A stretch of DNA of 39,047 bases from Candidatus Gastranaerophilales bacterium (GTDB taxonomy: Bacteria; Cyanobacteriota; Vampirovibrionia; Gastranaerophilales; Gastranaerophilaceae). The DNA lies in the NCBI GenBank assembly GCA_905234915.1, contig CAJOJP010000005.1, positions 1 through 39,047 on the forward strand. The letters run 5' to 3'. A program made the translations under genes and the position numbers. Positions 180 to 38,882 of this stretch are shown here, in pieces. Below the pieces are notes generated by a model. It did not search any database, was not told the DNA's origin, and worked only from the letters and a program-made list of their open reading frames with translations. Numbering within the stretch: the first letter of the stretch is position 1; each line of letters begins with the position of its first letter.

Positions 180-1145
180 GTGAAATATTTAAGCTGCAGA
201 TACATTGAGCACGGGTTGGATTTTGAGCATACAAGGCTTGAAACTTGCTGTTTTACCTGTCATTCCGGCGGAGGACGAATAACGTTAAAAGATGTTTATT
301 CCGGTGAAAGTATTGATTGGGAAAAACTTTTCAAGTTAAAACGAAAATATAGAGAAGAACATAGAAACGGCAGACTTTTGCCTAATTGTACGGGCTGTAT
401 TTTCCTTGAGGAAAAAGAGTGGGATAATGAAGATTACATTAATTTTCTTCAATTTAATTATTGGATTTTATGTAACAGTAAATGCAGTTATTGTTACGAA
501 GTTCAAAATAAAAAAATGTTTGATAAAATAAAGCCCTATGATTCTGTTCCCGTTGTGAAAGAAATGATTGAAAAGAAAATTTTACGTCCCGGAGGCGAAG
601 TTTCATTTGGAGGCGGTGAACCTACCATTGCTCCCGAATTTGAAGAACTTATTAATTTATTGACAGATAACGGATTTAAAAATATGAGAATACATTCCTC
701 CGGTATTAAATATTCTCCTGCAATTGAAAAGGCAATTAACCAGGGTGTTTTGAATGTTGTTATTTCCATAGATTCAGGCTGTGAAAAAACATATAAAAAA
801 ATTAAAAATGTAAATGCCTATAAAAAAGTACTTGAAAATATGAAAAAATATGCACAGGCAAATACGAATTATTACGGACTTATGACATCAAAATATATAA
901 TAATTCCCAATATAAACGATAATAGAAAAGAAATAGACAGCTGGATAAATTCAGTTGTTGAAACAGGCGGAAAGTGGCTTGCACTTGATATTGAGGATGT
1001 TTGGTATAAAGAACACCGTTCCACCATTTCATCTTACTATCTTGATTTAGTTAATTACGTAATAGATAAAGCAAATTCACTGAATATGAAAATTGAGCTT
1101 TATGATAGAGCCCGCGGTCTTAAAGAAGGCAAGAATTATTTATAA
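180..1145 (+). CDS. Radical SAM protein 1 with N-terminal SPASM-like cysteine cluster
   Basis: Radical SAM enzyme of 321 aa with a GTG start behind a good GGGGAG ribosome-binding site. The [4Fe-4S]/SAM motif is C98-NSK-C102-SY-C105, and GGGEP at 144-148 is the SAM-binding glycine motif. Before the core are C6, C23-C24, C27, C70 and C73. The pattern YLxC...CC...CxxC resembles a SPASM auxiliary-cluster domain, but these domains normally sit C-terminal to the core. Two paralogues in this window (24726-25760 and 26789-27781, minus strand) keep the same arrangement. The substrate is unknown: there is no adjacent precursor peptide or sugar pathway, and the next gene, dapL, is convergent with a 6-bp gap. 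The family call is firm; the auxiliary cluster is inferred from cysteine spacing. Confidence 0.85.
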   Translation: MKYLSCRYIEHGLDFEHTRLETCCFTCHSGGGRITLKDVYSGESIDWEKLFKLKRKYREEHRNGRLLPNCTGCIFLEEKEWDNEDYINFLQFNYWILCNSKCSYCYEVQNKKMFDKIKPYDSVPVVKEMIEKKILRPGGEVSFGGGEPTIAPEFEELINLLTDNGFKNMRIHSSGIKYSPAIEKAINQGVLNVVISIDSGCEKTYKKIKNVNAYKKVLENMKKYAQANTNYYGLMTSKYIIIPNINDNRKEIDSWINSVVETGGKWLALDIEDVWYKEHRSTISSYYLDLVNYVIDKANSLNMKIELYDRARGLKEGKNYL

Positions 1146-10106: not shown

Positions 10107-10292
10107 TTATGCATTTTTTTTAATACAATCAATATTTTGTTTTTCTTTTGAATACGCCATATACAAATCATAAGCAGATTGTGCATTCATCCAAAATTCC
10201 GGAGTAGTACCAAATAAATTAGCAAGTTTAAGTGCCATTAAAGGAGAAATACCGCATTTTTTATTATAATTTAATCCGGCTAAAGAATACTT
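10107..10292 (-). pseudogene. higA antitoxin remnant (C-terminal half only)
   Basis: The last 62 codons match the C-terminal half of HigA/VapI-type XRE antitoxins: SLAGLNYNKKCGISPLMALK, then LANLFGTTPEFWMNAQSAYDL. The recognition-helix half and the start codon are missing. Upstream on this strand the reading frame runs into antisense-like sequence of the cysteine-rich gene, whose stop codon coincides with the point where HigA similarity begins. No HigB toxin gene is nearby. It is best read as a truncated antitoxin left after recombination. Confidence 0.7.
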
Positions 10293-10728
10293 ACCTGCAG
10301 TACTGTCTAAATGAAACACCATATGTTCGCGAGCCATTAGTAATGCCTTCCCCCATTCTTGCCCAGTCACACTCAGCATCTTCAGGTATATTACATCCGC
10401 TATAGTCGATATTTGCATATTCACTACCTCGCCAATAATGCATTAAAACACGTGTGTGAGTTTCAAGCGGTCTTACGTATGCTCTGTGGTATCTTCCAAT
10501 CATGTTATCAATATCAGGACCTTGAGTATTACACCACTCTAAACATGCAGTATATGATGCATTTTCAGGCGCGTCACAATAAGTATCTAAATATGCATAA
10601 CGCACAACTGCATAAAGAAGTTCATCACTTTCACCAACAGTTACAAGTGCATTCACATGGCAGTCACAAGCTATTTTGTCATATACTGCAATATCGTCAT
10701 ATAGTTGTCTTACGTCTTCATCGCTCAA
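10291..10728 (-). CDS. Cysteine-rich protein, copy A (unrecognised family)
   Basis: Protein of 145 aa in no family I recognise, but clearly homologous to the one at 38406-38882. All eight cysteines (C21, 23, 51, 62, 66, 112, 120, 144) align with the other copy, as do LYxDIA, NASYxxCxxWCN and AECDWARM. There is no signal peptide. The only in-frame start seen is TTG 10728. Homology to the other copy continues upstream as IDLIENLS, and ATG 10753 would give MNYDLIENLS if one base near 10744 were removed, so this copy probably has a 1-nt frameshift next to its true start. GC content is visibly higher than in its neighbours, hinting at transfer. The stop abuts the higA remnant. Confidence 0.65.
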   Translation of the reverse strand: MSDEDVRQLYDDIAVYDKIACDCHVNALVTVGESDELLYAVVRYAYLDTYCDAPENASYTACLEWCNTQGPDIDNMIGRYHRAYVRPLETHTRVLMHYWRGSEYANIDYSGCNIPEDAECDWARMGEGITNGSRTYGVSFRQYCR

Positions 10729-20958: not shown

Positions 20959-22743
20959 TCATTCCATATCAAATAAATTGCTGTATTGCATGTGAAATGC
21001 ATAAAATTTTAAATGTCTTGTTCTTTCAGCTTCATTATTATTTACCGAATTTGCATATTTTAACCATTCATGCGTAGATATAAGTTTTTCAAGCTTATAT
21101 TCTTCATTATTTGTTAAATTAAATTTTTTGATTATAGATTTTACATCAGTACTTGAGTTAACAGCGTGATAAATATCGTCAATCCCTTCTTGTTTTGCGA
21201 TATCGTGTAGTAATGATGCCAAAAGCATTATTTTTTTATCAGAGTCATTTAAATCTTTAAATTTCGGATTTTGAACAACTCCCTGCATTACTTTTAGAGA
21301 ATGATTAAACACATCAAATTGATGCGGGCCTTTTGTTCCGTTCATTCCGTGTTGTATTCTTCCGATTGTTGTTCTTAATTCGGGAAGTGCTTTTATTATA
21401 TTATTTAATTTTTCTTCAAGCTTTTTATCAGAACACTTAATTTTATTGTTTTCTCTAAATTTTTGAACATCTTCACTTAAGTTTTCAATAACCTTTTTTG
21501 TTTCATGTTCTTTTATATAGTTAAGTTTTTCACTATTTTCGGGATTAAACGGATAACCTGATATTGAATATCCTATTCCGTCTTTTTTAAAACTTGCATT
21601 TTCATTTTCGTATATTTCAAAATTAAAATAATCATATACTTTTTGTTTTTCTTTATCGGGTAAATTTTTTACTTTATCAAGAACATTAAGAGTAAATTCA
21701 TCTTTTGTATATTCCTGTGTAATTGTTTTTGTTATATCTTTAAATTCTTTATCATTCATATTTAAAAGAATATTTGAAATATCAAATAAATTTTTATTAA
21801 AATCAGAAATTTCTTTATCAGTTAATTTATTTGTTTCAAAATATAATGAATTTACAACTTGAGGAAGAAAAGAACAGTATTCTTTTTGATTTTTAGGAAT
21901 TAAAGGAAACATTTTACGCATATCGTCAGAAATATTAAATAATTCGGAATTGGAACGAATTAAACTAAAAAGTATATCATCTTTGTCGTTTTTGGATAAT
22001 TCATTCAGGTTTGTTTTTTTATATAACGGTAAAAAATTAATGGAAAAACCTAATTCATTAATTGATAAATTGTCTGCCGTTTCTTTCCCAATCGTTTTAT
22101 CGAGTTTTTCAATATCTTCCTCCAAAGAAGGATCCCAGTATAAAAGCATAAAAAGCTTTTTATTTTCGGGCAGTTCTGTATCATCAAGCAATTGTAATTT
22201 TTTATCAGCTATTATCGGATAATTTGAATTGTTAATTATCTCAGGTGCTAATACTACAATATTTTCATTATTGTAAAAATCCTCATTAGAAAGAATTTTA
22301 CCTGCTAATTTTGCCTTATCTTTAGTATTTACGGTTTTAACTATATCCGGAGCCAAAATCATTAATGTTTGATTATTATATAATTTTTCATTAGAAATTA
22401 TTTTATTAGCAACTTTAAGACTAAATTCATTTCTTATACTCCATTTTAAAACATCTTCTTTTATTTCCGAAGGAAGTTTATCTCTATTTGCGATATATTC
22501 ATCTATCAGTTGATTTAATTTTTCTTTCTCGTTCAATTCTTGATTTTGAATATTGCCTTTAAAAGATAAATTAATTTTAGGAATGGTATAATTTGCTAAA
22601 GCTGTTTGAGCATCAACTTTTTGTTTTTCACTATTTGTTTCGTTGTTCCTGAAATTCTTATTTATGGATGTTTTATCCGTTTTTATTTCAGCACTCTTAA
22701 GGGGTGCAGTAAATGCTGCACTGTTCAAACTAACTAAACTCAT
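20959..22743 (-). CDS. HD-domain protein, N-terminal part (ends at in-frame TGA)
   Basis: A 594-codon frame from ATG 22743, chosen because AGG lies 8 nt before it; a TTG at 22749 is possible. The N-terminus is polar with an NLSFKG stretch; the middle is helical with repeats of the form KIISNEKLYNNQTLMILAPD / KILSNEDFYNNENIVVLAPE (about residues 117-168). A metal-dependent HD phosphohydrolase domain follows with NHSLKV and LLHDIAK (HD near 513-514). The HD domain is cut off at LFDME by TGA, and its last helix appears in phase just beyond. The substrate (nucleotide, tRNA or signal molecule) is unknown. Likely cotranscribed with the Gln-rich gene 37 nt upstream. Confidence 0.65.
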   Translation of the reverse strand: MSLVSLNSAAFTAPLKSAEIKTDKTSINKNFRNNETNSEKQKVDAQTALANYTIPKINLSFKGNIQNQELNEKEKLNQLIDEYIANRDKLPSEIKEDVLKWSIRNEFSLKVANKIISNEKLYNNQTLMILAPDIVKTVNTKDKAKLAGKILSNEDFYNNENIVVLAPEIINNSNYPIIADKKLQLLDDTELPENKKLFMLLYWDPSLEEDIEKLDKTIGKETADNLSINELGFSINFLPLYKKTNLNELSKNDKDDILFSLIRSNSELFNISDDMRKMFPLIPKNQKEYCSFLPQVVNSLYFETNKLTDKEISDFNKNLFDISNILLNMNDKEFKDITKTITQEYTKDEFTLNVLDKVKNLPDKEKQKVYDYFNFEIYENENASFKKDGIGYSISGYPFNPENSEKLNYIKEHETKKVIENLSEDVQKFRENNKIKCSDKKLEEKLNNIIKALPELRTTIGRIQHGMNGTKGPHQFDVFNHSLKVMQGVVQNPKFKDLNDSDKKIMLLASLLHDIAKQEGIDDIYHAVNSSTDVKSIIKKFNLTNNEEYKLEKLISTHEWLKYANSVNNNEAERTRHLKFYAFHMQYSNLFDME

Positions 22744-22780
22744 TTCCAATACCTATTCTTGACTTTAACTGTTCAATTTA

Positions 22781-24725: not shown

Positions 24726-25760
24726 TTATTGTAAATAACTTTTAGGTATTCCGCCCTCCTCCATAACACGCCTTGAAAATTCCCAGCAGCCGTCTTGAAT
24801 ACCTAATTCACTTATTCTTTTTTTATAATGTGCATAAATATCATAATAATGTTTAGGTACTTTAGGATCGGGATGATTAAATTCAGGGAAAAATCTCTTA
24901 AAATTTACATCCACTTTTGCTCTTTTTATACCGAGAGAATGAATTAAATTAATCCATTCGTCAATAGCTTCAATACTGTCATTATACCCATCAACTATAA
25001 TATATTTTGCATCCATTGCATTTATTGCATTATCGCTTACTGCAATATATCGTTTTAAATTAGCAACCACATCATCAAATGCATCTATTCTTTTGATTTT
25101 TTTATATAACTCACGATTTCCGCAATCAATTGAAAAATCAAAATTTACATGTTTAACTTCTTTTAAAGCTCTTTCTATCCCTTTGCAATAATAAATACAG
25201 GAGGAATGAAAAGACATATCTCCTGCCCCATTATCTATAATAAGATTTATTATTTTATCCGTTTCATCAAGAACTGTTAAATCTCCTCCAATCATTTCAA
25301 CATGTACATCAGGAGATATCATTTTAAGCTTATATAATTGTTCTAAATGTTTATAAACTTCATAATATTTGCTTGGCTTCGGTTCTTTTTGTAAAAATTG
25401 ACCTTGAGCACCTGAAATACAGTAAACGCATCCGCAATTGCAATGATCCCAGTGATTTAGATATATATTATCTATTAATTTATGATTGCTCCATTTTTTC
25501 TTTTCTAAATCTACACATCCGATACAGTTGTGCGGAAGAATTCCCTTTTTGCAATTTTCAATTACGGATTTACGTTTTTTTGAAATTTTTTTCCAATCTA
25601 TATCTTCTCCGTGATAGTTTTCTACAAAAGTTACCCCCTGTTTATTTGAACAACATGTTCTAAAGGCAGTATGAATAAATGTAATACCGCCATGCAGGTG
25701 CCTGCAGCTTAAATATTCTTTATCATTTCTTTTAAATAAATTTTTTATTTGTTCAAACAT
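24726..25760 (-). CDS. Radical SAM protein 2 with N-terminal SPASM-like cysteine cluster
   Basis: Protein of 344 aa, paralogue of proteins at 180-1145 and 26789-27781. N-terminal cysteines C19, C36-C37, C79 and C82 follow the same YLSC...CC...CxxC pattern. The radical SAM motif is C107-NCG-C111-VY-C114, with an extra C109 inside it. GG in MIGGDLT replaces the GGGEP glycine motif. GGAG (in GGGAGAG) precedes the ATG. Upstream lies shared element D in the same orientation as copy A before radical SAM gene 1, so the two may share control. Substrate unknown. Confidence 0.85.
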   Translation of the reverse strand: MFEQIKNLFKRNDKEYLSCRHLHGGITFIHTAFRTCCSNKQGVTFVENYHGEDIDWKKISKKRKSVIENCKKGILPHNCIGCVDLEKKKWSNHKLIDNIYLNHWDHCNCGCVYCISGAQGQFLQKEPKPSKYYEVYKHLEQLYKLKMISPDVHVEMIGGDLTVLDETDKIINLIIDNGAGDMSFHSSCIYYCKGIERALKEVKHVNFDFSIDCGNRELYKKIKRIDAFDDVVANLKRYIAVSDNAINAMDAKYIIVDGYNDSIEAIDEWINLIHSLGIKRAKVDVNFKRFFPEFNHPDPKVPKHYYDIYAHYKKRISELGIQDGCWEFSRRVMEEGGIPKSYLQ

Positions 25761-26788: not shown

Positions 26789-27781
26789 TTATGCTTTTTT
26801 CTTTGCTATTATTGCTTTTGCCTGATCGTTTGTTTGTATATTTAGTCCTGATTCGGCTGCAATTGAGTTAAAATGCTCATATAATTCAAAATAATATTCC
26901 GGAACATTAATTGATTTAGAGTACTTATACTTTACAAAATCTACATCCATTCTAATATTGTTAACTCCCAAATCTTTTACAAGATGCACAAATTTTGATA
27001 TTTTTTCTTTATTATCGTTAATCCCGTCAACTAAAATGTATTTTAAAGTAATATTATCGCGTGCAAAATCAGAGGCTGCAATATAAGTTTTTATGTTATT
27101 TATTACGCTGTTAAAACAATCAACCTGTTTTATTTGTTTAAAAGTTTCTTTATCGGCACTATCCAAAGAAATAACCAGAATACATTTATCTTCAATAAAT
27201 GCCTGTTTTATTGACTCGGAATATTTTATGCCGGAGGTTAAAATTTCTACTTTTGTGTCTAAATATTTTGCCAGTGTTGAAAACATAGTTTCAAATTCGG
27301 GAGATATCGTTATTTCTCCGCCTGACATATAAACTCTTGCTTTTTTGGAAAGTATTTGATTTCCAATCATTGAATTTATAACAGGCAATACTCTGTATTT
27401 AAATGAATTATTTATATATCCGAAAGAACAGTAAACGCATTTTGCATTACAGGACATATTATTTTGAATAAATACTTTATTTATAATATTAGGGAAATCA
27501 GAAACTTTAGATTTTGAATACATAGAAGGCAATTCAAAACAATTTTTGCATACCTCAAGGCAAGTTTTTTTATTTCTGAAAGAATTTATTTCTTTAATCC
27601 ATTCTTTACGTTTTTTATAAACGTAATCCCAATTAATATCACGTCCGTCATAATTTTCATAAAAAACCGGTCCGGGTACATTAGAGCAGCAGGCGCGTAT
27701 ATTATCATAAAAAAAATGAATGGAATGCTTTATATTGTAGCAGTCAAGATATTTTTCTTTTTTAAATAAGCTGTCAAACAT
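26789..27781 (-). CDS. Radical SAM protein 3 with N-terminal SPASM-like cysteine cluster
   Basis: Protein of 330 aa, third paralogue. N-terminal C14, C31-C32, C74, C78 and C81; radical SAM motif C111-NAK-C115-VY-C118; MSGGEITISPEF as the glycine motif. It follows the decarboxylase gene after 6 nt on the same strand, so the two are one transcription unit. A role with an amino acid or polyamine substrate would fit but is inference. AGG lies 7 nt before the ATG. The low number of Cys outside these sites supports their role as cluster ligands. Confidence 0.85.
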   Translation of the reverse strand: MFDSLFKKEKYLDCYNIKHSIHFFYDNIRACCSNVPGPVFYENYDGRDINWDYVYKKRKEWIKEINSFRNKKTCLEVCKNCFELPSMYSKSKVSDFPNIINKVFIQNNMSCNAKCVYCSFGYINNSFKYRVLPVINSMIGNQILSKKARVYMSGGEITISPEFETMFSTLAKYLDTKVEILTSGIKYSESIKQAFIEDKCILVISLDSADKETFKQIKQVDCFNSVINNIKTYIAASDFARDNITLKYILVDGINDNKEKISKFVHLVKDLGVNNIRMDVDFVKYKYSKSINVPEYYFELYEHFNSIAAESGLNIQTNDQAKAIIAKKKA

Positions 27782-27787
27782 AAAAAC

Positions 27788-29158
27788 CTATGCTAAAACT
27801 TTTATTTTCTTTCTTGTTTCCGCAAGATAATCAATATGTTCTTTTTTTATAACTTCTCCCGGGAGTAAAACAGGAATTCCCGGGGGATAGTCAGTAATTA
27901 ATTCCATTGAGACCCTTGCAAGTGCGTGTTGAATATCGACTTCTTTATAGGGTTTTCCCCATAGAGCGGCGGGAGTGTACCTCATTCTGGGTTCCAGTGT
28001 TGATAATATATCATACTTTGATTTTTCGGGAGTTAATTTAATATTATTATCACATATTGAAAACAATGCCTTTTCCAATTTATTGAGTTTTGATTCGCTA
28101 GTACCTATTCCTGTTAAATATAAGACGGATTTTTCATTTGAAAGTTCATCTTCAATTCCGTATTTATTAATCATAATATCAGAAAGCTCGCGGCCTGACA
28201 TATTGGTAACTTTAACCAATATTTTGGTAATATCATTATTAGTTGAATAAACCTCGAGATTTGGTATTGTTTTTAAAGAACGAATAATGCGGTTAAGTTT
28301 TTTTATATAATTTTGAATATATAATTGTCCTTTTTTTGAAGCAAGATAAGTAATTACGGCTTCAATATTTAATAACAAAGGGTAAGAAGGAGAGGTTGTA
28401 GTAAACAAATTTAGTGACTGCTGAACAAATTTAGGTTCAATATTTGATTCCCAGCCGAGATGTAAAAGTGCGGAAGGATTTAAAGCTCCTGCGGTTTTGT
28501 GGAGTGATTGAATTACGATATCAGCACCCTGTAAAAGAGAGGGAATACCTATTGCTTTATGAAAATTCCATAAAGCTCCGTGTGCTTCATCAACAATCAA
28601 AACAGCTCCGTATTTTTTGCACATTGCGGAAATACGGCTTATATCAAACATTACCCCCTCATAAGTAGGATTTGTAATTATAACCGCTTTAACTTCCTTG
28701 TTTTTATATAACAATTCTTCAAGATAATTAAGATTTAAAGAATCATAAATACCCCATTCGGGATTATAATCAGGCATCAGCCAGATAGGAATTGCCCCCG
28801 TAAGAACCAGACCGTTATATACCGATTTATGACAATTTCTTGCTATAATTACTTTATCATTTCTGTTTAGAACCGAATACATAGCGGCAATAATACCTGA
28901 GGTTGAACCGTTAGTCAAAAAGAAAGTTGATTTAGCTCCGTATATAGCGGCTGCATCCTCCTGAGCAGCTCTAATCATCCCCGATGGATTTGCAAGATTA
29001 TCAAATCCTTCTATTTCGGAATAATCACAGGAAAAAAACTTTGCCCCGATTAATTTATGTGATTTAGGAGCAGTAAAATCTCCCTGCGAATGCGAAGGAG
29101 TTGTATAAAGTATTCTTTTTTTCTTTTTATAATTTTCAATAAAATTTATAATTGACAT
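27788..29158 (-). CDS. Orn/Lys/Arg decarboxylase family protein
   Basis: Fold-type I PLP decarboxylase of 456 aa. It shows TPSHSQGDF near the N-terminus, FLTNGSTSGIIAAMYSVL, VDEAHGALWNFH (PLP-contacting Asp and His), and SLHKTAGALNPSALLH with the Schiff-base Lys. A C-terminal decarboxylase domain ends with YPPGIPVLLPGEVI. It resembles the shorter (Bacillus SpeA/cyanobacterial) type without a response-regulator-like wing domain. Substrate (Arg, Lys or Orn) cannot be told by eye. ATG 29158 is preferred over an upstream start at 29251, because the promoter at 29197-29168 lies between them and the family similarity starts after 29158. Confidence 0.88.
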   Translation of the reverse strand: MSIINFIENYKKKKRILYTTPSHSQGDFTAPKSHKLIGAKFFSCDYSEIEGFDNLANPSGMIRAAQEDAAAIYGAKSTFFLTNGSTSGIIAAMYSVLNRNDKVIIARNCHKSVYNGLVLTGAIPIWLMPDYNPEWGIYDSLNLNYLEELLYKNKEVKAVIITNPTYEGVMFDISRISAMCKKYGAVLIVDEAHGALWNFHKAIGIPSLLQGADIVIQSLHKTAGALNPSALLHLGWESNIEPKFVQQSLNLFTTTSPSYPLLLNIEAVITYLASKKGQLYIQNYIKKLNRIIRSLKTIPNLEVYSTNNDITKILVKVTNMSGRELSDIMINKYGIEDELSNEKSVLYLTGIGTSESKLNKLEKALFSICDNNIKLTPEKSKYDILSTLEPRMRYTPAALWGKPYKEVDIQHALARVSMELITDYPPGIPVLLPGEVIKKEHIDYLAETRKKIKVLA

Positions 29159-29167
29159 TCTTTTTTT

Positions 29168-29197
29168 ATTATAGAATGAATAAGCATAACTAATCAA
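29168..29197 (-). promoter_or_regulatory. Promoter of decarboxylase-radical SAM operon, near-leaderless
   Basis: On the minus strand: TTGATT (29197-29192), 18-bp spacer, TATAAT (29173-29168). The ATG at 29158 follows after 9 nt, leaving at most a few nt of leader and no ribosome-binding site apart from an A-rich run. Confidence 0.55.
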
Positions 29198-29206
29198 GAA
29201 TATTAA

Positions 29207-31240
<2,034 letters not shown>

Positions 31241-37194: not shown

Positions 37195-37407
37195 TACTAA
37201 AACCTTATTTTCCTAATATTGAAACAAGTATAGCATATTGGACAAAAACTTGACAATAGAGAAAATTTTTTATATAGTTTCTTTGTAACGTATATATAGT
37301 TTTTGGGCATGTTGGTTTTTTGATTTTGTAAGTTTAAATCATATATTGTTGTATTCTGTGTATTCGTTAATAAATACTAAGCTGCGTAAAATATAGAGAT
37401 ATAGTTG
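37195..37407. other. Divergent intergenic region, 213 bp
   Basis: AT-rich, no gene. TTGACA (37251-37256) could serve as a -35, but no good -10 follows at the right distance. It separates the toroid gene from the broken ATP-grasp gene. Confidence 0.3.
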
Positions 37408-38404
37408 ATGTTAAAAAATTTTATTGATTGGATGAAAATCCAAGACGAAATAGGTGAACCTCCGTGGGAATACGACTTTCTCTACAATCTCCCGGAGAGC
37501 GAGTATCCTAAATATTTAAAAAAGATTTTCAAATATCGCACGGGTGAAGATTTACCGTTAAAATATGTTTTTAAATTACATAATTGGATTATAGATAAAA
37601 AAAGATGTAAAACATTTAATCAAAAAATTCAATATATAAAATTGTATTGTATAACTCCTCTAATGCGTAATTGTGCTGATAAAGTAAATGTACGCGGATT
37701 TGTTGGTGAAAAAATCGGAACAGAATATTTAAAACCTGTACTTCAAGTAGTTAGGAGTGAGGAGAGTGGAGTTAGGAGCAATAATTTAAATTTTTCACTC
37801 TCAACTCTTAACACTCCGCTCTTCGATAAAATCGACTTTGAAAAACATAAAATGCGCTCACGGGTGCAAGTGGCATTATACGATAAGAGGCAAAAATATT
37901 TTTCTGGAAAATAAACAAATATTTGATATTGTAAAACGAAACATAACAGGCTGGTTAGAGCAGGAGTTTTTTCCTTATGAAGGCTTTGAACTTCAATACA
38001 AGGGAATGCAACCAAAGTTATTAATTGAACCTTTTATGAGGGAAAACAGACTCATTGAGGTATATTGTTTTAACGGTCAACCAAAAGTTTTTGCGGATAT
38101 TCACCTTGATAAAGGTGTCAGGATTTGTACTTACAATGAAGATTGCAGTTATGCGGATTTAGTATTAAAACCAGAGGATAGAAAATTAATGCAGAAGTTT
38201 CCTGCTGACGAAATATTAAAACAATCAATTGATTTAAGTAAAAAGCTGTCGAAAGATTTTAGGTTTGTTCGCGTTGATTGGATGTTACATCAAAATAAAT
38301 TGTATTTTGAAGAATTAACCTTTACACCCTACAGCGGGTTTAGCACTTTTGATAAAAAGTGGAATTTAAAAATGGGAAATTGGATAAATTTGGAAGGAGT
38401 TTAA
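37408..38404 (+). pseudogene. TupA-like ATP-grasp gene, frameshifted
   Basis: Family of ATP-grasp proteins linked to capsular or teichuronate-type polysaccharides. The N-terminal half runs KTFNQKIQYIKLYCITPLMR, CADKVNVRGFVGEKIGTEYL. The C-terminal half, in the +1 frame, runs CAHGCKWHYTI, NITGWLEQEFFPYEGFELQY, VRVDWMLHQNKLYFEELTFT. Between them an extra stretch of about 24 codons (VRSEESGVRSNNLNFSL...) replaces two or so residues, and near 37845-37852 about 20 nt of the expected LPxxFVLK codons are missing, with a frame change after EKHK. The first frame ends at 37914. Spacing (1 nt) suggests cotranscription with the cysteine-rich gene. Confidence 0.75.
37749..37821. repeat. Small degenerate repeat insert inside ATP-grasp gene
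   Basis: About 72 nt with near-tandem GGAGTGAGGAGAGTGGAG-type units on the left and ACTCTCAACTCTTAACACTC-type units on the right, giving an imperfect inverted repeat around an AT-rich centre. It is in frame and encodes VRSEESGVRS-like residues, a kind of small palindromic insert seen in other bacterial genes. Confidence 0.55.
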
Positions 38405-38405
38405 A

Positions 38406-38882
38406 GTGGATTTTGATAGTTTAGAAAAACTTTCACCGGAAGAAATAAGTGAACTATATAATGATATTGCGGAAAAAGATAATTTAGCCTGTATATGTTG
38501 GGCTAATACATACGTAACTATTGATAGTGATGAAAGCGGACAGCTTTTTCGTGCTATTAGTAAAATGAAACGTAACTATACATATTGCGATAATGAGGTA
38601 AATGCCAGTTATGCTAACTGTAAGGCTTGGTGTAATAATCAAAATTTACCTCTTGAGGAATTACCCGGCAGACGTATAGGGTCATTAACTGAGCTTGATA
38701 ATTATAGTCGGGAAGTTCAAACCACGGTATTTTCTTGGGATGGAAGCATTAGATCTAGTGTTACGTATGGTCATTGTATAATACCCAGTGAAGCGGAATG
38801 TGATTGGGCAAGAATGTCAACAGGCGGGAGAGTTCTTTCTAATGCAAGCATTTTGGCGTTTAGAAGGCATTGCAGCCAGTAA
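38406..38882 (+). CDS. Cysteine-rich protein, copy B (unrecognised family)
   Basis: Protein of 158 aa with GTG start and a strong GGAAGGAG site. Eight cysteines (C29, 31, 61, 72, 76, 124, 132, 156) match copy A at 10291-10728 in order and almost in spacing (Cx1C, Cx10Cx3C, Cx7Cx23C), with the shared stretches LYNDIAEKD, NASYANCKAWCN, IIPSEAECDWARM and FRRHC. There is no signal peptide or membrane segment. The pattern suits metal or iron-sulfur binding, or disulfides if exported by another route. It lies 1 nt after a frameshifted ATP-grasp gene. Function unknown. Confidence 0.75.
   Translation: MDFDSLEKLSPEEISELYNDIAEKDNLACICWANTYVTIDSDESGQLFRAISKMKRNYTYCDNEVNASYANCKAWCNNQNLPLEELPGRRIGSLTELDNYSREVQTTVFSWDGSIRSSVTYGHCIIPSEAECDWARMSTGGRVLSNASILAFRRHCSQ

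Follow-up and report, generated by a model that had tools for sequence, protein, structure and literature searches.

The three proteins described here belong to a family of radical SAM proteins in which a four-cysteine, twitch-type domain stands before the CxxxCxxC core. Our results strongly support this order as fixed throughout the family. The surprising part is the expansion of the family within a single Gastranaerophilales genus, to about 5 to 42 copies per small genome. The members are probably radical SAM enzymes whose N-terminal twitch carries an auxiliary cluster, which catalyze a net oxidation and which represent old paralogues working on different substrates.

Three members are encoded in the window, the whole stretch of 39,047 nucleotides that was analyzed. 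P0001 (positions 180-1145, plus strand) starts with GTG and contains 321 residues. Its predicted twitch domain (residues 1-95, positions 180-464, plus strand) contains the ligand-type cysteines C6, C23, C70, and C73, and the radical SAM [4Fe-4S] motif CNSKCSYC follows at positions 471-494 of the same strand with the arrangement C98-x3-C102-x2-C105. P0002 (24726-25760, 344 residues) and P0003 (26789-27781, 330 residues) are paralogues with the same domain order, both on the minus strand. The predicted twitch domain of P0002 occupies positions 25449-25724 (minus) and its motif CNCGCVYC positions 25419-25442 (minus), while those of P0003, with the motif CNAKCVYC, occupy 27458-27760 (minus) and 27428-27451 (minus), respectively. 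The plus strand is rich in stop codons at the positions of P0002 and P0003; the earlier sequence-only reading of this DNA had located all three open reading frames, which do exist, while leaving the minus strand of these two unstated. That reading had also described a YLxC...CC...CxxC pattern followed by CxxxCxxC in three paralogues, and the open reading frames, their paralogy, and their Pfam matches agree with it. Pairwise identity among the three proteins was 30-36% across the greater part of each sequence (E 1e-41 to 2e-56), and the Radical_SAM family PF04055 matched all of them above its cut-off of 29.5 bits, with 66.9, 39.8, and 50.4 bits for P0001, P0002, and P0003. A match of PF13353 on P0001 overlapped the core, and otherwise no notable Pfam domain was found in the three proteins. 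The N-terminal cysteine pattern lies within a stretch of about 95 residues ahead of the core. The AlphaFold2 model of full-length P0001 had a pLDDT of 95.2 and a pTM of 0.91, and in fold comparison its core aligned to SuiB, SkfB, PFL-AE, and BlsE, with Z values of 12-17 to SuiB, PFL-AE, and others. With the CxxxCxxC motif and the partial TIM barrel, the three proteins are members of the radical SAM superfamily.

A search of the genome from which the window comes (2.50 Mb in 146 contigs) gave 20 matches, 18 of which were full family members. Across these 18 copies the only invariant cysteines were C6, C23, C70, and C73 at the N-terminus and C98, C102, and C105 in the core (P0001 numbering). We then considered 137 members of usable length, drawn from this genome, three sister genomes, one more distant genome, and the relatives of P0001 in 16 named records (Gastranaerophilales, "Cyanobacteria bacterium", and one "Bacterium"). 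Exactly four N-terminal cysteines, C6, C23, C70, and C73, were conserved in 134 of the 137, most commonly with the spacing C-x16-C-x46-C-x2-C-x24-CxxxCxxC, so the fixed domain order proposed from the three window proteins holds for the same 134. Among 78 representatives less than 70% identical to one another, each of the four was found in 76 and the three core cysteines in all 78. C24, the second cysteine of the "CC", is unlikely to be a ligand because it was present in only 59 of the 78. The trio recognized from the sequence are thus paralogues as claimed, but the family extends well beyond them and the second half of the "CC" is not one of its conserved features.

The remaining three members (L033:3015-3893, L034:3031-3897, and L036:205-1071, all on the minus strand) form one small group that lacks all four N-terminal cysteines and keeps the core. 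Homologues without these cysteines had been named beforehand as grounds for rejecting the permuted arrangement; they occur in this single group only, and the joint loss of all four is the behavior expected of ligands to one cluster. This group can serve as a naturally occurring test for the proposed auxiliary cluster, and a family with the domain at the N-terminus together with a cysteine-less group provides a clean system for asking what the auxiliary cluster needs in terms of position.

Profile comparison related the N-terminal domain to SPASM domains. With hhalign, 76 N-domains compared with 11 C-terminal SPASM domains from the same order gave a score of 31.5 (P 5.4e-6, probability 86%), and C6, C23, C70, and C73 were aligned on SPASM cysteines. 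None of 100 column-shuffled controls reached this score (maximum 15.8), nor did any of 100 shuffles with the cysteine columns fixed (maximum 20.9). Set against 27 N-terminal SPASM domains by themselves, the N-domains gave no significant match (probability 4%), and joining the C-terminal and N-terminal SPASM sets gave P 9.5e-6. The SPASM-like character assigned to these cysteines by the sequence-only reading is thus supported by homology above shuffled controls. The homology covers the first half, the twitch, of SPASM domains. A further gene, L078:10109-11122, which shares a gene row with family members of the sister genome G014, contains Pfam SPASM at residues 5-66 (52.2 bits, cut-off 21.5) and the core at residues 97-236. 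It aligned to the family profile nearly end to end and, judged by these alignments, appears to form a bridge between the family and Pfam SPASM proteins.

The predicted structures showed a consistent topology. The first 95 residues of P0001 modeled alone had a pLDDT of 94.8, and in both P0001 models C6 was placed before a β-hairpin (strands 12-15 and 20-21), C23 after the hairpin, and C70 and C73 after the helix of residues 47-62. The twitch of SkfB, BtrN, and MoaA has a β-hairpin flanked by one cysteine on each side and a pair of cysteines following a helix (PMC6231123), and the modeled positions of C6, C23, C70, and C73 correspond to this layout. The full SPASM motif contains seven cysteines, C-x9-15-G-x4-C-gap-C-x2-C-x5-C-x3-C-gap-C (PMC6231123), whereas only four N-terminal cysteines are conserved in the family, and PF13186 (SPASM) was absent from P0001, P0002, and P0003 in the Pfam search. 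The homology to SPASM therefore stands and the full two-cluster SPASM domain does not; a four-cysteine twitch with one predicted cluster takes its place. In view of the profile homology and the modeled topology, the N-terminal domain is most likely a twitch moved to the front that would hold one cysteine-ligated auxiliary [4Fe-4S] cluster.

The four cysteines might instead have a structural role, binding zinc or a cluster far from the active site, in folding, redox sensing, or substrate docking, and a zinc site would likewise give four invariant cysteines. The best PDB sequence matches of the domain were to eS27, a ribosomal zinc protein, at chance level (E 0.5). The profile of the N-domain against the PDB returned chance hits only and no twitch, and Foldseek and VIA-align with the isolated domain found no significant PDB match and no twitch; for so small a domain both kinds of search are weak, and a difference in fold is not implied. 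The domain is, however, homologous to SPASM domains that bind Fe-S clusters, it has the twitch topology in the models, and its cysteines directly adjoin the radical SAM core, which makes a purely structural site quite unlikely.

With an N-terminal twitch as the preferred assignment, a mechanism may be proposed from what is established for the superfamily. The core cluster would cleave SAM, and the resulting 5'-deoxyadenosyl radical would take a hydrogen atom from the substrate. The twitch would hold one auxiliary [4Fe-4S] cluster fully ligated by cysteine, an arrangement favored over the open iron of the MoaA type because four cysteines are available; in MoaA the twitch cluster has an open site for GTP (PMC6231123). 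This cluster might accept the leftover electron, giving a net oxidation in the form of a dehydrogenation or a new bond, and electron acceptance by auxiliary clusters has been proposed for BtrN and anSME (PMC6231123). By analogy, the family enzymes would oxidize their substrates. A twitch placed ahead of the core could be accommodated, since strand 1 begins at the base of the barrel and the barrel finishes there as well. C-terminal twitch domains dock at this base, and a front twitch would, on topological grounds, occupy approximately the same space.

Comparison of the copies suggested that they have long been separate. Nearest paralogues within a genome were about 42% identical (median), whereas reciprocal best matches across species were mostly 60-94% identical, which points to old, separately maintained enzymes, some of them species-specific. 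The set included 16 orthologues of P0001, 78-94% identical to it, with 13 records falling at 80-94%, and the dN/dS of P0001 was about 0.04-0.09 where dS could be computed, a rough value because dS was high; judged from these substitutions, P0001 is under purifying selection. The nearest relatives of P0003 in the sampled genomes were 52% and 47% identical, and P0002 had no close orthologue in these genomes (best 32%).

Copies without a close orthologue in other species might suggest viperin-like antiviral enzymes that make modified nucleotides, with the copy number reflecting an arms race with phages, and the PADLOC pVip models did match the core, with 52 bits for P0001. MoaA and others scored similarly, which indicates general similarity of the core, and NF038283 gave 49.9, 18.2, and 35.2 bits for P0001, P0002, and P0003 against a cut-off of 180. 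P0001 moreover occupies a conserved position in numerous species and is under purifying selection, and viperin is not known to contain a twitch. Viral contigs, phages, and plasmids contained no relatives covering the N-domain and gave matches at the level of the core only. An antiviral role is thus very improbable, and an origin in defense systems or phages was rejected, the similarity being confined to the core.

The surroundings of the family genes varied. Another family member adjoined 80 of the 137, 39 had a same-strand neighbor from outside the family within 60 bp, and 26 had no same-strand neighbor within 100 bp. No fixed operon partner was found across the sampled loci. The conserved place of P0001, seen in 12-15 loci, is bounded by a 468-residue protein without a Pfam match on one side and an isochorismatase-like gene on the other. 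A MATE transporter stood beside members in 6 loci; such genes at L013:910-2229 and L051:7086-8426 adjoin members, that in L013 with an overlap of about 10 bp, and the transporter is a possible candidate for an export partner. An Orn/Lys/Arg decarboxylase gene (PF01276, positions 27788-29251, minus strand) lies upstream of P0003 on the same strand, 6 bp from its start, and a decarboxylase homologue was found directly upstream of a member in 2 sampled loci, the window included, which makes the decarboxylase a possible operon partner of P0003. The remaining neighbors were ordinary and mostly unrelated genes. The neighbors first listed for the three window genes, namely an aminotransferase (PF00155), a uridine-kinase-family gene (PF00485), and this decarboxylase, were all recovered, the name dapL for the aminotransferase being a reading of the sequence. 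Because the neighbors differ, the suggestion that the paralogues share a chemistry on different substrates is reasonable, and the diversity of neighbors and paralogues suggests several substrates.

Two further features were noted near these genes. A 245-residue protein encoded between P0002 and P0003 (25957-26694, plus strand) carries a C-terminal stretch resembling a glycine zipper and matched no Pfam family above its cut-off. An F-K/Q/T-G motif near the N-terminus of large proteins (NLSFKGN, MNSFKGT, and QPSFQGE are examples) occurs at window 20959-22749 (minus), L043:3166-3966, L064:1324-4296, and other places, and may mark a single class of proteins. As a tag of the neighboring proteins, "FKG" was not convincing, with 55 of 457 proteins against 31-50 in shuffles.

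The same genome contains TupA-like ATP-grasp genes (PF14305). Behind them there is often a gene for a short cysteine-rich protein, in which the leader is conserved (M-[DN]-x-D-xx-E-x-L-[ST]-x-x-[ED]-I-x-x-L-[YF]-x-D) and the remainder varies strongly. Genes of this cassette lie at 37405-38882 (plus) and 10291-10728 (minus) of the window and at L013:470-871, L015:8387-8878, L017:8989-9348, L018:2295-2666, and L019:1121-1597, often at contig ends, and are reminiscent of a peptide natural-product system. In the window, the ATP-grasp gene at 37405-38404 (plus) is split over two frames and has an inserted-looking stretch, SGVRSNNLNFSLSTLNTPLFDK, a near copy of which is present in L018. In this genome, hits or candidates for the ATP-grasp numbered 39-77 and leader proteins 58; the sister genome G009 nearly equaled these numbers, and elsewhere in the genus they were 0-11 and 0-5. 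The radical SAM family did not covary with the cassette over 35 genomes of the genus, and a link between them was rejected.

These cassettes bear on whether the family members act in trans as maturases of RiPP-type peptides, for example of the short cysteine-rich leader proteins, a role that would be compatible with an N-terminal twitch. The maturases SuiB and SkfB are among the best fold matches, and several copies in the window's genome have leader-like cysteine-rich proteins encoded no more than a few kb away. Amplification of the leader proteins and TupA ATP-grasp genes is, however, confined to this genome and one sister; where the radical SAM family reaches 36 or more copies, both are almost absent, and most members have no conserved small open reading frame beside them (frames of at least 45 residues considered). 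Peptide maturation is accordingly unlikely as the general role of the family.

The N-twitch family is concentrated in one genus. With an 18-row profile, it was present in 31 of the 34 other genomes of the genus, at 5 to at least 38 copies, and absent from three (G008, G019, and G032). The window's genome has 18 copies and the 2.0-Mb sister genome G014 (99% complete) has 42, the latter all strong matches with E 7e-59 or better; strong matches numbered 16 in G025 and 17 in G034. A survey of the phylum (386 genomes, best five candidates in each), which separates none or one from many and is not a count, showed richness in this genus only and 0-2 copies in other genera. In some genera of the same taxonomic family and in one genome of another there were 1-2 copies, and these frequently lay in longer frames. 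The three genomes without the family had 18-19 radical SAM genes in total, against 36 to at least 52 in other members of the genus, so the family makes up much of the radical SAM excess, and in some species N-twitch enzymes account for around half of all radical SAM genes. We tentatively suggest that the diverged, stand-alone N-twitch enzymes, up to about 42 in a set specific to this genus, may be an oxidation toolkit for many cellular substrates, an idea that we hold as possible rather than probable; no described parallel was found for so diversified a radical oxidation toolkit in so small a genome. The copy numbers (18, 42, and 0 in three species) point to a further level of modification in this gut lineage, on which little work exists.

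Placing the auxiliary domain in front is itself already catalogued. Papers describe twitch and SPASM domains as C-terminal, and a full-text literature search found no paper on an N-terminal twitch; titles on radical SAM genes of Gastranaerophilales or Melainabacteria included nothing relevant. The 398-position model NF033640 (N_Twi_rSAM), however, corresponds to SPASM-type domains over positions 2-70 and to the core beginning near position 105, so its members carry the domain in front. When the domain order was searched for across genomes, as had been proposed at the outset, the fetched loci of the genomes studied gave 29 domain hits (27 distinct sequences) with SPASM ahead of the core, in addition to the family itself. 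The architecture was initially taken as unknown, and these precedents correct that view. Some of the SPASM-before-core genes share gene rows with family members; at L078:4942-14093 in G014, six family members and three radical SAM genes with N-terminal SPASM-type domains are intermixed.

Among known systems, NF033640 resembles the window family in having an auxiliary-cluster domain ahead of the radical SAM core. It differs in that P0001, at 27.6 bits, fell far short of the cut-off of 170 and matched over the core only; P0002 and P0003 had no listed match, and none of 56 genomes of relatives had a hit above the cut-off. On these scores the family of the three window proteins is a separate, diverged group. 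TYW1 and MiaB/RimO are radical SAM enzymes whose second cluster is bound by N-terminal cysteines, as proposed for the family, but they have other N-terminal folds and three cysteines and are not twitch proteins. MoaA (GTP 3',8-cyclase), also a twitch enzyme, was among the best named core matches in the HMM libraries, although the family scores far below its cut-off. The SPASM enzymes anSME, PqqE, SuiB, and CteB (PF13186) share a homologous auxiliary-cluster domain and a radical SAM core; theirs has seven cysteines and two clusters and is C-terminal, whereas that of the family has four cysteines and one predicted cluster and is N-terminal. BtrN (2-deoxy-scyllo-inosamine dehydrogenase) differs from the family in sequence and carries its twitch at the C-terminus, opposite to the N-terminal position seen here. 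Its single twitch uses four cysteines to ligate one [4Fe-4S] cluster fully (PMC6231123), and the family domain has four cysteines too.
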